DNA of 43,451 nt from Anaerolineales bacterium. GTDB taxonomy: Bacteria; Chloroflexota; Anaerolineae; Anaerolineales; UBA4823. Both the position numbers and the translations under genes were made by a program. Position 1 is the first letter of the stretch. Each line of letters begins with the position of its first letter. The DNA lies in assembly GCA_020354045.1 (NCBI GenBank), contig CP070639.1:44733-88183 (forward strand), given 5' to 3'. Below are positions 19,884 through 25,528 of the stretch, one piece after another. A model generated the notes under the pieces. It did no database searches. It saw only the letters and a program-made list of their open reading frames with translations, and was not told where the DNA came from.

Positions 19884-22589
19884 CTATACGAATCCATTTA
19901 ACTGTTGCTGCAGCTTGGTAGCTGTCTCTTGAAAGGCTGCCAGTTTTTCCCTTTCTTTTTGAACAATCTCTGGCGGTGCTTTCTGTGAAAAAGGACCTGA
20001 CAATAGGTTTTGCAAGCGCGCTACTTGTGATTGAGTAAGGGCTAGTTCTTTCTCCAGGCGGATTCGTTCTTCGTGGGTATCAACCAGACCAGCCAAAGGT
20101 AAATAAATTTCAACTGGCCCTACAATGAGGGCAATATGACCTTCAGGTTTTCCATCAACTGAATTTAAGATCTCTGTTGAGCTACTGTCCAACTGGGCTA
20201 ATGAGGTTATGGGTGCAAACAATTCTTTCATAACAGTCGCATGAGATTGGGAAACCAGTAAAGCAGGAATCTGCCTGCCCGGTACGACATTTTTCTCTGA
20301 GCGCAAGTTTCGTATAGCACGAACAACCTCTTGAATAATGGTGAAATCGGCGATTTTCTCGGCTTCCCAGCCTTCTTCTTGTCGCGGCTCGGGCCAACGG
20401 GCGACTATCAAGGCTTCTGGCCAACCTTCTCCAGGAGCCAGGTGCTTGGAGCAGGATTGAGCTGCATTTTTTAGGTGCCTCCATAACTCCTCAGTAATGA
20501 ATGGAATGAACGGGTGGAGTAATCTCAGGCTAAAATCAATCACTCTAGTCAGAGTGTAGGCAGTGTAAAAGGCACGATCACCACCCTCGGCAAGTTGGAG
20601 CTTGGCAATTTCAATATACCAATCCGCAAAATCGCTCCAGAAGAAGTCGTAAATATGGCGCCCAGCTTCGCCATATTGGTAATTTTGAAATAGGCGCTCA
20701 ACATCGCGGATAATGGTTTGCAGCCTGGCCCAAATCCACGAATCAGCAAGCGTCCATTCAGGTTCGTTAGAAGGCTCACCTGGTAGGTTGGGATATGTGT
20801 TGATCACAAATCGCCCGGCATTCCAAATTTTATTTGCAAAATTGCGATTGGCCTCGACCTTTTTTACACTCAGATTCATATCATTACCGGGTGTTGAACC
20901 GACGAGTAAAGTGAAACGTAATGCATCTGTGCCTAATTCATCCATGACTACCAGGGGATCAATCACGTTACCATATGTCTTACTCATTTTGCGACCCTGT
21001 TCGTCCCTGATCAAACCGTGTAAATATACGGTCTCAAATGGGACAGTACCAGTAAATTCAATCCCGAACATGATCATGCGCGCAACCCAGAAAAAGAGGA
21101 TGTCATAGCCAGTTTCCATCATGGAAGTTGGATAGAAATATTTGAAGTCTGGTGTTTCTTCAGGCCAACCCAGGGTGGAGAAAGGCCAAAGACCGGAGGA
21201 AAACCACGTGTCCAACACATCTGGATCTTGTGTAATTGTGTGGCTACCACATTGTGAACAAGCGCTGGGATCTTCCCGGGATACGGTCATTTCATGACAT
21301 TCGTCGCAGTACCATACTGGGATACGATGCCCCCACCATAGTTGCCGGCTTATACACCAATCCTGAATATTTTCAAGCCAGTTGTAATACACCTTTGTAA
21401 ATCGTTCGGGTACGATTTTAATTTTCCCTTGTTGCACCGCGGTGAGAGCTGCTTCAGCTAATGGTTGGATCGCTATAAACCATTGGGTTGAGATCATGGG
21501 CTCAACGATCTCACCCCCGCGTTGTGAACGGGGAATACTTAGCGTGTATGGTTCTTCTTTAAGCGTCAGACCTGCTTTGCGCATGTCCTCCCACAGGTTC
21601 TTGCGTGCCACAAAACGATCCTGTCCAGCGTAAGGCCCGCCATGTTCATTAATGTGGGCTGACTGATCAAGAATGGAAATTATCTCTAGCCCGTGGCGTG
21701 TTCCAATTTCGTAATCATTTGGATCATGCCCCGGCGTGATTTTCAGGGCCCCGGTTCCGAACTCGCGGTCAACATATTCGTCAGCTAAAACGGGGATTTC
21801 TCGCCCGAGGATAGGTACCAGGACTTTTTTTCCTACAAATTTTTTATAACGATCATCTTCAGGATGTACAGCAACTGCAGTGTCTCCTAAGATGGTTTCA
21901 GGGCGTGTTGTTGCAACAGGGATATACTCACCATTGTGATCAACGAGCATGTATTTAAAATAATATAAAAAGCCGGGCTCCTCCGAATATTCCACCTCTA
22001 AATCAGAGACGGCAGTCTTCAAGCCTGGAGACCAATTGATCAGGCGAGGGCCACGATATACCAAACCTTTCTCATATAGTCTCACAAACGCTTCTCGAAC
22101 GGCGTGCGATAGCCCCTCGTCGAGTGTAAAACGCTCTCTATCCCAATCACACGAAGCCCCAAGGCGGCGGATTTGCTGGGTGATGATACCTCCAAATCTC
22201 TCCTTCCAAGCCCAGGTGCGCTCCAAAAATGCTTCACGCCCGATTTGTTCACGGCTTGTTCCTTCTCGCAACAAAGATTTTTCTACCTGCAATTGCGTGG
22301 CAATGCCGGCGTGATCTGTCCCTGGCACCCACAGGGTAGAGTAACCTTTCATACGATGGTATCGGATCATAAGATCCTCCATCGAAACAAACATGGCATG
22401 CCCGAGATGCAACTCACCGGTAACATTGGGTGGCGGGATTGATATAACATAAGTTTTCGCATAAGGGTCAAAGCCGGATTGGTGCGGATCATTCGTAGGA
22501 GCGAAATAACCCATCCTCTGCCACCATTCATAAATTCGTTGTTCTGTTACTTTGAAATCGTATGTCTTCGGAAGCGTATAATCTGTCAT
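19884..22589 (-). CDS. valS: Valyl-tRNA synthetase, canonical bacterial type
   Basis: About 901 residues. I prefer the ATG at 22589 over the one at 22595 because GGAG then lies 7 bp upstream instead of 1. Class I features: PNVTGELHLGHAM (HIGH box, residues 60s), GTDHAGIATQ which is diagnostic of ValRS, an editing domain with ATTRPETILGDTAVAV, a zinc-type cluster (WYCDECHE and CSQCGS, about 425-450) and GRKMSKTYGN (KMSKS, about 537). The C-terminus has the valyl-specific coiled-coil tRNA-binding arm (VDTHEERIRLEKEL to the end). It lies 27 bp after a second, structurally different ValRS gene. Both are presumably controlled by the upstream tRNA-Val T-box. Confidence 0.96.
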   Translation of the reverse strand: MTDYTLPKTYDFKVTEQRIYEWWQRMGYFAPTNDPHQSGFDPYAKTYVISIPPPNVTGELHLGHAMFVSMEDLMIRYHRMKGYSTLWVPGTDHAGIATQLQVEKSLLREGTSREQIGREAFLERTWAWKERFGGIITQQIRRLGASCDWDRERFTLDEGLSHAVREAFVRLYEKGLVYRGPRLINWSPGLKTAVSDLEVEYSEEPGFLYYFKYMLVDHNGEYIPVATTRPETILGDTAVAVHPEDDRYKKFVGKKVLVPILGREIPVLADEYVDREFGTGALKITPGHDPNDYEIGTRHGLEIISILDQSAHINEHGGPYAGQDRFVARKNLWEDMRKAGLTLKEEPYTLSIPRSQRGGEIVEPMISTQWFIAIQPLAEAALTAVQQGKIKIVPERFTKVYYNWLENIQDWCISRQLWWGHRIPVWYCDECHEMTVSREDPSACSQCGSHTITQDPDVLDTWFSSGLWPFSTLGWPEETPDFKYFYPTSMMETGYDILFFWVARMIMFGIEFTGTVPFETVYLHGLIRDEQGRKMSKTYGNVIDPLVVMDELGTDALRFTLLVGSTPGNDMNLSVKKVEANRNFANKIWNAGRFVINTYPNLPGEPSNEPEWTLADSWIWARLQTIIRDVERLFQNYQYGEAGRHIYDFFWSDFADWYIEIAKLQLAEGGDRAFYTAYTLTRVIDFSLRLLHPFIPFITEELWRHLKNAAQSCSKHLAPGEGWPEALIVARWPEPRQEEGWEAEKIADFTIIQEVVRAIRNLRSEKNVVPGRQIPALLVSQSHATVMKELFAPITSLAQLDSSSTEILNSVDGKPEGHIALIVGPVEIYLPLAGLVDTHEERIRLEKELALTQSQVARLQNLLSGPFSQKAPPEIVQKEREKLAAFQETATKLQQQLNGFV

Positions 22590-22616
22590 GCTCATACTCC
22601 ATATTTACAATTTTTA

Positions 22617-25139
22617 TCACTCTTTACGGTTATTCAGCATAGGAGGGTTATTATTTTCTATAGCGCCAGCCACGGTGAGTAATTCCGTATTCAGTAATGT
22701 TTCCAATGAATTGTCTATCACGGATACAAGTTCAATTTCCTGTGCACGCGTGATGCTCATCAAGTCGTCTTGTGCAGCAGAAAGCCCGAGCAATAGCTCA
22801 GGATTTTGAGTGAACAATTGTAATCTAACCAATTCGGTAGCTAAGGGAAGGTTCAGATTACTTTTAAAACGCCGGACTGCTGTGGCGATATTCACCAGGT
22901 TTTCTCCAAGTTGCTCAGCTTGGGTATCAATAAAAGCCTGTTCTGGAACAGGCCAGCTTGCCAGGTGAATGGATGATTTTCTTTTAGATGGCAGAAACAC
23001 AGTATGGTAGATTTGCTCGGTGATAAATGGCATGTAAGGTGCCAGCAGCTTTATGACAGATAGAAGTAATTTGTGCAAGCTGTATGTGGCAGCCTGATGA
23101 GATGGTATTTCGGTGTTATATAGGCGTTGTTTACACATCTCGAGATAATTATCCGCAAATTCGGTCCACAGAAATGTCTCAATTTCACTTTTAGCTGAGG
23201 CATACTCATATTGTTCAAGCAAGTAAGTGGTGCGGACTATTAGTCCTTGAAGCCGTGAAAGAATCCATTTATCTGCAGGTGTGAGCGTGTTCTTAATTCC
23301 ATGGTTTTCAGATTGAGTCTGCGAGGGTATGTATCCATTAAGAAAACTAGCAGAGAAACGAGCAATATTCCACAGTTTGGTAGCAAACTTAGCCCCGTTT
23401 TGGATTTTTTCTTCACTGATGACTGAATCTTTTCCCGGGGCTGTGCTCGCAGCCCAGTAACGTACAGCATCTGCTGAATAGCGATCTATCATTTCCAAAG
23501 GTGGCATGGGTCCACCACCACGACTCTTGCTGATTTTGCCCATACCTTCACCAGCGATACCCCAACCAGAGATTAGGACATCCATCCAGGGAAGTGTTTT
23601 AAAATGATGAAAAGACTTCACAATGGTGTAAAAGGCCCAGGTGCGGATGATTTCATGCGCCTGTGGTCGAAGTGAGAATGGGAAAACTTTAGAATACAGG
23701 TCGCTCTCCAAATTCATTTGCTGATTGGTTAACCATTGACCCACGATTTGGGGTGTCATGGACGAGGTAGCCCAAGTGTCGAGCACATCTTCTTCCGGTG
23801 AAAAAGCTTGTGAGCCACAATTTGGACAAGAAGTTTGAGGTTTTTCTACGGTAGGGTCTACGGGTAACTGTTGTTCATCTGCCAACAAAACTTGATCGCA
23901 TTCCTGACAATACCATACTGGAATAGGGATCCCAAAATAGCGTTGTCGTGAGATGCACCAATCCCAGTTAAGATTTTGAACCCAGGATACGTAACGTGAT
24001 TTCATTTGTTCGGGGTACCAGCGAATACTATCACCGGCGTTCAATAAGGCTTCTTTATAATCTAATACACGGATAAACCACTGGTGAGTGGTGATGTATT
24101 CAACGGGTGTGTCGCAGCGCTCATGGACTCTTATTGAATGTCTGGTAGGTTGCTGATCTAGTAGATAGCCTGCGTCCAGCAAGGCAGCTTTAATTTGATG
24201 GCGAGCCTGAGAAACCGAAAAACCCGAGAAATTACCAGCTGCGCTGGTAAGCGTTCCATCCCGATCGATCGCCTCAATTTTTGGTAGATTATATGAAAGC
24301 CACCAGTTTACATCAGCAACATCTCCGAAGGTGCAGCACATGACCGCACCTGTGCCTTTACCAGGATCAGCTGAGTTATCCACAAGGATTGGAACTTGAT
24401 GCCCGAACAGAGGCACCTTCGCCTGATGACTCTGGGCATAGGTAAATCTTTGATCTTCAGGATGAACGAAAATAGCAACACAGGCTGGTAGGAGCTCAGG
24501 GCGCGTGGTTGCTATGGGAAGGTGCTCTCCATTCTCGAGCGTAAAATTGATGGTGATATATTCACTATCCCTGTGGTGGTCATTTAATTCTGCCTGTGCA
24601 ATCGCGGTTTGGCATTCAGGGCACCAAAGAGTAGGCGCTTCACGCCGATAGACTTTGCCGTTTAAATATAATTCCAGGAAGGATTTTTGGGAAATCAATT
24701 GTGAAGTCCGATCGATGGTGCGATAAGAATATCTCCAGTCAATCGAAAGTCCTAATCGCTGCCATAATGTGATGTACTCAGCTTCCATGGTTTCACTCAG
24801 TTCAAGACACTTTTCGATAAAAGCGCGACGCCCGATGGTTTTTGCTCGAACACCTAGCTGTTTTTCTACCAGACGTTCGGTAGGCAAACCATTATCATCA
24901 AATCCCATAGGATAGAATACACGATACCCGCGCATTCGCCAGAAACGGGCAAAAATGTCTGGATGTGTGTAAGAGTAAATGTGACCGAGATGTAACAATC
25001 CAGAGACCGTCGGAGGGGGGGTATCGATTGAGTAAATCTGATCATTCGGTCCGGCTTGAAAGACATACGTCTCATCTTCTGCCCAGTTTGAGATTATCTC
25101 GATTTCCTGGGTTTTGTGATCATATCTTTTGGGTAGCAT
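22617..25139 (-). CDS. valS: Second valyl-tRNA synthetase, archaeal/rickettsial-like (type 2)
   Basis: 840 residues. HLGH is at residues 50-53 and KISKS lies in GEGMGKISKSRGGG (about 533-538). The motif FDDNGLPTERLVEK is the type-2 ValRS form of the region reading GTDHAGIATQ in bacterial ValRS; IleRS would have a DCHGLP motif. Editing-domain ATTRPELLPACVAIFV is present, plus two Cys clusters (LWCPECQ; WYCQEC with CPNCGS). ERCDTPVEY followed by QWFI also fits ValRS type 2. It lacks the long C-terminal coiled-coil arm of the downstream bacterial-type ValRS. The ATG at 25139 has GGAG 8 bp upstream and follows the T-box terminator by 29 nt. Whether both enzymes are expressed and active is not known. 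Confidence 0.9.
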   Translation of the reverse strand: MLPKRYDHKTQEIEIISNWAEDETYVFQAGPNDQIYSIDTPPPTVSGLLHLGHIYSYTHPDIFARFWRMRGYRVFYPMGFDDNGLPTERLVEKQLGVRAKTIGRRAFIEKCLELSETMEAEYITLWQRLGLSIDWRYSYRTIDRTSQLISQKSFLELYLNGKVYRREAPTLWCPECQTAIAQAELNDHHRDSEYITINFTLENGEHLPIATTRPELLPACVAIFVHPEDQRFTYAQSHQAKVPLFGHQVPILVDNSADPGKGTGAVMCCTFGDVADVNWWLSYNLPKIEAIDRDGTLTSAAGNFSGFSVSQARHQIKAALLDAGYLLDQQPTRHSIRVHERCDTPVEYITTHQWFIRVLDYKEALLNAGDSIRWYPEQMKSRYVSWVQNLNWDWCISRQRYFGIPIPVWYCQECDQVLLADEQQLPVDPTVEKPQTSCPNCGSQAFSPEEDVLDTWATSSMTPQIVGQWLTNQQMNLESDLYSKVFPFSLRPQAHEIIRTWAFYTIVKSFHHFKTLPWMDVLISGWGIAGEGMGKISKSRGGGPMPPLEMIDRYSADAVRYWAASTAPGKDSVISEEKIQNGAKFATKLWNIARFSASFLNGYIPSQTQSENHGIKNTLTPADKWILSRLQGLIVRTTYLLEQYEYASAKSEIETFLWTEFADNYLEMCKQRLYNTEIPSHQAATYSLHKLLLSVIKLLAPYMPFITEQIYHTVFLPSKRKSSIHLASWPVPEQAFIDTQAEQLGENLVNIATAVRRFKSNLNLPLATELVRLQLFTQNPELLLGLSAAQDDLMSITRAQEIELVSVIDNSLETLLNTELLTVAGAIENNNPPMLNNRKE

Positions 25140-25168: not shown

Positions 25169-25203
25169 AAAAATCCCTTTCATCCTGGTTAAGGACGAAA
25201 GGG
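25169..25203 (-). terminator. Conditional terminator of the T-box leader
   Basis: An 11-bp stem (CCCTTTCGTCC / GGATGAAAGGG, one G-U pair) with a 7-nt loop, followed by ATTTTT on the minus strand. Its left arm and loop contain the CCTTAA needed for the antiterminator, so the two structures exclude each other. Confidence 0.88.
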
Positions 25204-25493
25204 CAATCCTTCCGCGGTACCACCTTAATTCACCTGGTATTATTTTGCCGGTGCTCTTATCCCTGGCGAGACTTATGAAATGGCTAGCCAGAGTTACGCG
25301 CTAACGGGCTTACCCGTGCTGTTCTAATGGAGCATGGCTGACTTAATAAATATGCACGCTCTTTCTTCAGCAGATATCACCGGACGACGTTCGGCAGCAT
25401 ACTTCTGCGGGGGCTCTCAGCCTTTGGCCTTCCCTTCTCTGCCAGTGTACTGACTGCCTACTCCTCCCGGCATGTTTTATTGATGTGAATTGT
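25169..25493 (-). promoter_or_regulatory. T-box riboswitch leader, tRNA-Val specific (GUC specifier)
   Basis: Minus-strand leader of the tandem valS operon. Lower Stem I pairs CCGGG (25470-25466) with TCCGG (25384-25380), and the upper stem pairs GGCAG (25458-25454) with CTGCC (25397-25393). The internal loop between them has AGTA on one side (AGGAGTA) and GAAC-GTC-G on the other, the classic specifier-loop layout, placing GTC (Val) at 25388-25386. A GGCTGAGAGCC apical motif follows the form of Stem I tips. The T-box proper, AATTAAGGTGGTACCGCG, runs 25230-25213; its TGGT bulge matches a tRNA acceptor with A73, as in tRNA-Val. TTAAGG can pair with CCTTAA (25194-25189) as antiterminator, competing with the terminator at 25203-25175. 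Uncharged tRNA-Val should permit readthrough. Confidence 0.93.
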
Positions 25494-25499
25494 AGGAAA

Positions 25500-25528
25500 A
25501 TTATAACGAACAACGGTTAATTGGTCAA
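25500..25528 (-). promoter_or_regulatory. Sigma-A promoter of the T-box/valS operon
   Basis: On the minus strand TTGACC (25528-25523), 17 bp, perfect TATAAT (25505-25500). Start expected near 25493, so the T-box leader is about 355 nt to the first valS codon. Confidence 0.75.

Follow-up and report, generated by a model that had tools for sequence, protein, structure and literature searches.

A T-box leader upstream of two valine–tRNA ligase genes

The stretch of DNA analysed here (the window) comprises 43,451 nucleotides of contig CP070639.1 from an Anaerolineales bacterium, and all coordinates are positions in it. Its minus strand carries a T-box leader followed by two genes for valine–tRNA ligases, valS1 and valS2. 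T-box control of a synthetase operon is nothing unusual; what lifts the finding is that Stem I has no kink-turn (K-turn) at its base, an absence conserved across many genera. A covariance search with all 4227 Rfam families matched the T-box family RF00230 at 25188-25478 on the minus strand with 65.7 bits and an E-value of 6.5e-14, over the full length of the model (1-219 of 219), and a genome-wide search with RF00230 returned the leader again at 65.7 bits. A preliminary description of the locus had proposed a T-box on this strand and called for just such a search. The element is confirmed as a T-box leader, ordinary in kind.

The match lies below the Rfam gathering score of 93 bits, which is a reporting threshold and not a biological feature, and the leader is therefore missed by a default scan: at gathering thresholds no T-box was reported in the window or in its named relatives, whereas a scan by E-value finds the window leader. 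The valS T-boxes of 22 relatives scored 38-86 bits, all below 93, so the default cut-off misses the entire valS group and Chloroflexota T-boxes are under-annotated. Many other RF00230 matches in the Chloroflexota genomes searched also fall short of the gathering score and are absent from default annotation.

The leader is preceded by a sigma-70 type promoter, TTGACC-17-TATAAT (25500..25528, minus strand like all features below), which agrees with the consensus at 11 of 12 positions and is the top match of its region. Stem I (25380..25470) has as its lowest helix CCGGG (25470-25466) paired with UCCGG (25384-25380), with neither a K-turn nor a base helix below. Its specifier loop, AGGAGUA opposite GAACGUCG, presents GUC (valine) at 25386..25388 in the context GAA-C-GUC-G, a placement given by the register and the comparative data described below, and its apex (25412..25440) contains the T-loop motifs AGAGA and UGAGA of the tRNA elbow contact in the RF00230 alignment. 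In the consensus fold of 27 leaders, where a K-turn and base helix would otherwise lie, Stem I is joined to Stem II by a single-stranded linker, UGAUAUC (25373..25379). Stem II (25317..25372; UGCUG/CAGCA, with S-turn strands AAGAAA and UUAGAA) was likewise placed by the consensus fold, the Stem IIA/B element CGGGUAAGCCCGUUA (25302..25316) by that fold together with the RF00230 alignment, and Stem III (25231..25253; CACC...GGUG) by the alignment. The antiterminator, AAGG-UGGUACC-GCGGAAGG...CCUUUCGU-CCUU (25191..25226; -10.5 kcal/mol if formed), encloses the bulge UGGU (25222-25219), which is predicted to pair with the ACCA end of tRNA-Val. The intrinsic terminator (25169..25203) consists of a 12-bp stem at 25203-25175 (-17.9 kcal/mol) and a run of five U at 25173-25169; it takes the 3' half of the antiterminator, so that the two structures are mutually exclusive. 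Complementarity between the antiterminator strands A1 and A2 is kept in the relatives, including an A-U to G-C exchange, and both the A1/A2 pairs and those of lower Stem I show covariation on both sides among relatives.

The preliminary description had listed the AGTA/GAAC specifier loop with GTC in register, the TGGT bulge, the competing terminator with its U tract and the promoter, and each of these is borne out. Its word "complete" overstates the case, however, and overlooks that Stem I is without its K-turn.

Specifier and cognate tRNA

The specifier was compared in 23 valS leaders, that of the window and those of 22 relatives. All 22 that could be read carry GUC; in the remaining leader (L013) the specifier stretch is masked as N. 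Neither outcome that the preliminary description had named as refuting its reading, a lack of any covariance match or a non-Val triplet in the specifier position, occurred. The base 5' of the codon is C, U, G or absent while GUC is fixed, so the conservation belongs to the codon. The register used was GAA-N-codon-purine-helix. Specifier calls by regular expression produced false GUG, GUU and GUA readings from apical loops and were settled by locating the lower Stem I helix and reading the sequence. Applied to other T-boxes of the same genome, this register yields codons that fit the genes downstream: UGG for a TrpB-like gene and for trpS, ACC for thrS, and AUC for a gene matching ileS-type synthetases. 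It also gives UUC before a partly masked open reading frame, which was labelled pheS by eye and is unconfirmed by a family match.

The genome encodes tRNA-Val(GAC), in which A73, followed by CCA, fits the UGGU bulge, as the preliminary description had expected. The sole other tRNA-Val found is tRNA-Val(UAC); a pattern search of the genome found no tRNA-Val(CAC). At locus L002 (1425-1759; C1:657954-658288) the CCA end of a tRNA-Val(GAC) gene abuts the threonine (ACC) T-box of thrS with zero gap, and tRNA-Val(GAC), the predicted ligand of the window T-box, thus probably shares a transcript with the thrS T-box.

Absence of the K-turn from Stem I

The canonical T-box K-turn lies below the lower Stem I helix and is built as base helix, 3-nucleotide bulge, GA and helix on one strand, and helix, GA and base helix on the other. 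The test applied to the leaders required tandem GA, the 3-nucleotide bulge and a base helix three or more pairs long; a looser form of it is passed by shuffled flanks in 0-15% of trials. A stricter first version was dropped because it failed on the Trp, Thr and Phe T-boxes of the window's own genome, whose K-turns are known. No K-turn was found in the Val leaders of this lineage (0 of 30, the window leader and 29 related ones). In the window leader the lower helix is flanked by CAAUAAAACAUG on its 5' side and by UGAUAUC on its 3' side, without the motif. Five of the six other T-boxes of the same genome have a K-turn (two Trp, Thr, Phe and Ile); the T-box of the leuS operon is without one.

In the consensus fold of the 27 leaders, the lower Stem I helix is followed by about six unpaired bases, then by Stem II, whose S-turn strands are GAAGAAA and AGUAGA, by an upper Stem II and by the IIA/B element. 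The pairs of lower Stem II and IIA/B are intact in 26-27 of the 27, and those of lower Stem I and Stem II have undergone two-sided base changes. The Val leaders of this lineage thus keep Stem II while showing no recognisable K-turn. According to a 2020 review (PMC7583486), the K-turn is present in nearly all T-boxes and is likely required where Stem II is present, and whether any T-box functions without one is an open question. A full-text literature search for K-turn-less T-boxes returned only this review, and an older notice of such Val T-boxes is possible. On balance we lean, if only slightly, towards the view that, contrary to the expectation in that review, Val T-boxes of a natural lineage that retain Stem II function without any K-turn, a short single-stranded hinge taking its place. 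Since the genome of the window also holds K-turn-bearing T-boxes, which serve as internal controls, the question posed in the review becomes directly testable.

The leuS locus L060 (3814-10384, minus strand) comprises a pair of tRNA-Ala genes, a T-box, ilvE and a tandem pair of bacterial-type leuS genes that are 48% identical; this T-box has no K-turn, and in the usual register its specifier does not read as Leu, one possible reading being GUG. At L090, in genome G026 of the same order, a lone bacterial-type valS has a K-turn-bearing T-box with the specifier GUA.

Downstream genes

The first gene, valS1 (22617..25139, minus strand), encodes an archaeal-type valine–tRNA ligase of 840 amino acids, identified by its match to family NF009687 (1019.5 bits; cut-off 738). 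Among 14 control genomes, NF009687 (PRK13208) matches only the four archaea included and Thermotoga, four of these five above the cut-off, and the motifs HLGH and KISKS are found in the valS1 sequence. The second gene, valS2 (19884..22595, minus strand), encodes a bacterial-type enzyme of 903 amino acids (NF004349, 1170 bits; cut-off 704). It starts 21 bp past valS1, and the two proteins are 31% identical. Self-resistance to an antibiotic is one conceivable reason for keeping two valyl-tRNA synthetase genes. Most related genomes have a lone bacterial-type valS bearing the same T-box, and in those with valS1 the order is T-box, valS1, valS2. The genome-wide RF00230 search found no second T-box beside valS2 in the window's genome. 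From this arrangement the window T-box most likely controls both genes, which upholds the earlier proposal that it governs the pair. The same description had taken the specifier as independent support for the valyl identity of the first gene; GUC does point to a valine-related operon, but, since in relatives a lone bacterial-type valS follows this T-box, it is not specific evidence for valS1.

Several Chloroflexota genomes (families f70, f59 and others) have only an archaeal-type valyl-tRNA synthetase, with no bacterial-type match above the cut-off, which suggests that the native enzyme has been replaced in those families.

Occurrence in Chloroflexota and history of the locus

T-boxes were found in all 41 genomes searched, namely the window's genome plus 40 others from its family and order, at 1-9 per genome; genomes of another family, f40, have 10-20 each. 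In the literature, Chloroflexi T-boxes were reported in 2008 for Dehalococcoides ileS and trp genes (PMC2494555) and again in 2013 (PMC3766115). The remark in the preliminary description that T-boxes are less common in Chloroflexota consequently carries little weight.

In a tree of valS1 proteins, the window's group forms one clade (99% in the Shimodaira–Hasegawa-like approximate likelihood ratio test, SH-aLRT) beside Ktedonobacteria-like sequences, one of which (genome G337) is identical to that of Tengunoibacter tsumagoiensis. In genomes G154, G337, G131 and G194, valS1 is preceded by a K-turn-less GUC T-box, as in the window's order, and the T-box of valS2 passed the K-turn test in G154, G337 and G194 and failed it in G131. 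Together, the K-turn pattern of these four genomes and the protein tree suggest that T-box and valS1 were transferred jointly as a cassette. A tree of leader DNA agrees with this at weak support (6 of 44 branches starred), and for this reason no history was rested on the leader tree alone. Relatives with a lone bacterial valS behind the T-box, set against tandem genomes with the order T-box, valS1, valS2, indicate that the archaeal-type valS1 was most likely inserted between a pre-existing valS T-box and the native valS.

In the Ktedonobacteria-like genomes of family f40, a separate, unlinked T-box with the specifier GUG belongs to the archaeal-type valS, and GUC is the specifier for their bacterial-type valS (loci L132, L136, L138, L139, L149 and L150 for valS1; L152-L154 and L159 for valS2). 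Two genomes of family f58 have the specifiers swapped relative to f40 (L134, L148, L157 and L160). A tRNA-Val(CAC) is present in all five genomes checked from the f40/f58 set. GUG accounts for 2% of the Val specifiers in TBDB and violates the "C rule" (PMC7778990). The two synthetases of one genome may, judging by these codons, answer to different tRNA-Val isoacceptors.

Proposed mechanism and alternatives

We consider it probable, with good confidence, that the window element is a transcriptional T-box sensing uncharged tRNA-Val(GAC), in which one terminator controls a valS1-valS2 operon, and that it belongs to a K-turn-less lineage with a flexible-strand hinge into whose operon valS1 was inserted. 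Upon valine shortage, the anticodon of uncharged tRNA-Val(GAC) would pair with GUC and the tRNA elbow would stack on the Stem I apex. The ACCA end would then pair with UGGU and stabilise the antiterminator, and with the antiterminator held RNA polymerase would read through into valS1 and valS2. With charged tRNA the ACCA-UGGU pairing would not take place and the terminator would form. The flexible strand of about 6 nucleotides would let Stem II fold back onto the specifier-anticodon duplex, which is the role of the K-turn elsewhere.

Several observations weigh against this proposal. The covariance score lies under the curated cut-off, and the plain folding energy of the leader barely beats that of shuffled sequences (z -1.66), so that the weight of the evidence lies with the covariance score and with the comparative data. 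In the window leader the 3' strand of the S-turn reads AUUAGA, one base off the usual AGUAGA, and co-transcription of valS2 is deduced from gene spacing alone. A divergent kink could evade the K-turn test. Of the 29 best-scoring T-boxes of the order, 22 were amenable to scanning, and a K-turn is present in 21 of these; that sample is made up mostly of the best covariance matches and for that reason biased toward K-turn holders; the comparison within the window's own genome is free of this bias and is small.

The rival explanations bear on different parts of the proposal. A working Val T-box might still be bent at the base of Stem I by a non-canonical kink, whether as a divergent K-turn or through a junction involving the 5' end; the lineage would then have a sequence variant and would not be free of K-turns. 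GA does directly follow the helix in the window (UCCGG-UGA), but tandem GA with a base helix occurs in none of the 30 leaders, the consensus fold shows only one weak pair below the CCGGG helix, and the sequences flanking that helix are neither complementary nor conserved; we regard such a kink as unlikely. Somewhat less likely still is that the T-box governs valS1 alone, valS2 having a promoter of its own or depending on constitutive read-through. That valS2 is the housekeeping-type enzyme and that some relatives have another gene or 270 bp between valS1 and valS2 would fit this arrangement. Against it stand the 21 bp gap here and a similar one in L010, the lack of a second T-box by valS2 in this genome, and the single-valS relatives, in which the same T-box is carried on the bacterial-type gene.

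Decay of the T-box, with both the K-turn and the response to tRNA lost, would account for the sub-threshold score as well as for the missing motif. Since the same architecture recurs in more than 20 genera with compensatory changes, a near-invariant GUC, an intact bulge and mostly intact terminators, decay appears very improbable. Reading the specifier out of this frame, as ACG (Thr), CGU (Arg) or UCG (Ser), is the most far-fetched of these explanations: every T-box offers adjacent frames, and the use of alternative ones is on record (PMC7778990), but relatives conserve the GUC frame alone, and its register is correct for the other T-boxes of the genome.

Comparison with known systems

The window leader resembles the transcriptional type of RF00230 with a long Stem I and a Stem II in its AGUA/GAA specifier loop, T-loop apex, S-turn Stem II, IIA/B element, Stem III, UGGN bulge, antiterminator/terminator switch and aminoacyl-tRNA synthetase target. 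It differs from that type in having no K-turn or base helix under lower Stem I and in its score below the cut-off. A K-turn-less Stem I has been proposed for the Staphylococcus aureus ileS T-box, as cited in the review (PMC7583486); set beside it by that description only, the lineage of the window is valine-specific and conserved over many Chloroflexota genera. In the T-boxes of Dehalococcoides (PMC2494555), from the same phylum, a synthetase gene and trp genes are likewise the targets; in the part of that report consulted, valS is not among the named cases and K-turn status is not discussed. As in the Bacillus cereus lysK T-box, which serves a class I lysyl-tRNA synthetase (PMC2916919), an extra archaeal-type synthetase is placed under a T-box beside the usual enzyme. 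The lysK T-box, however, serves the extra gene, whereas that of the window precedes both valine enzymes in tandem.
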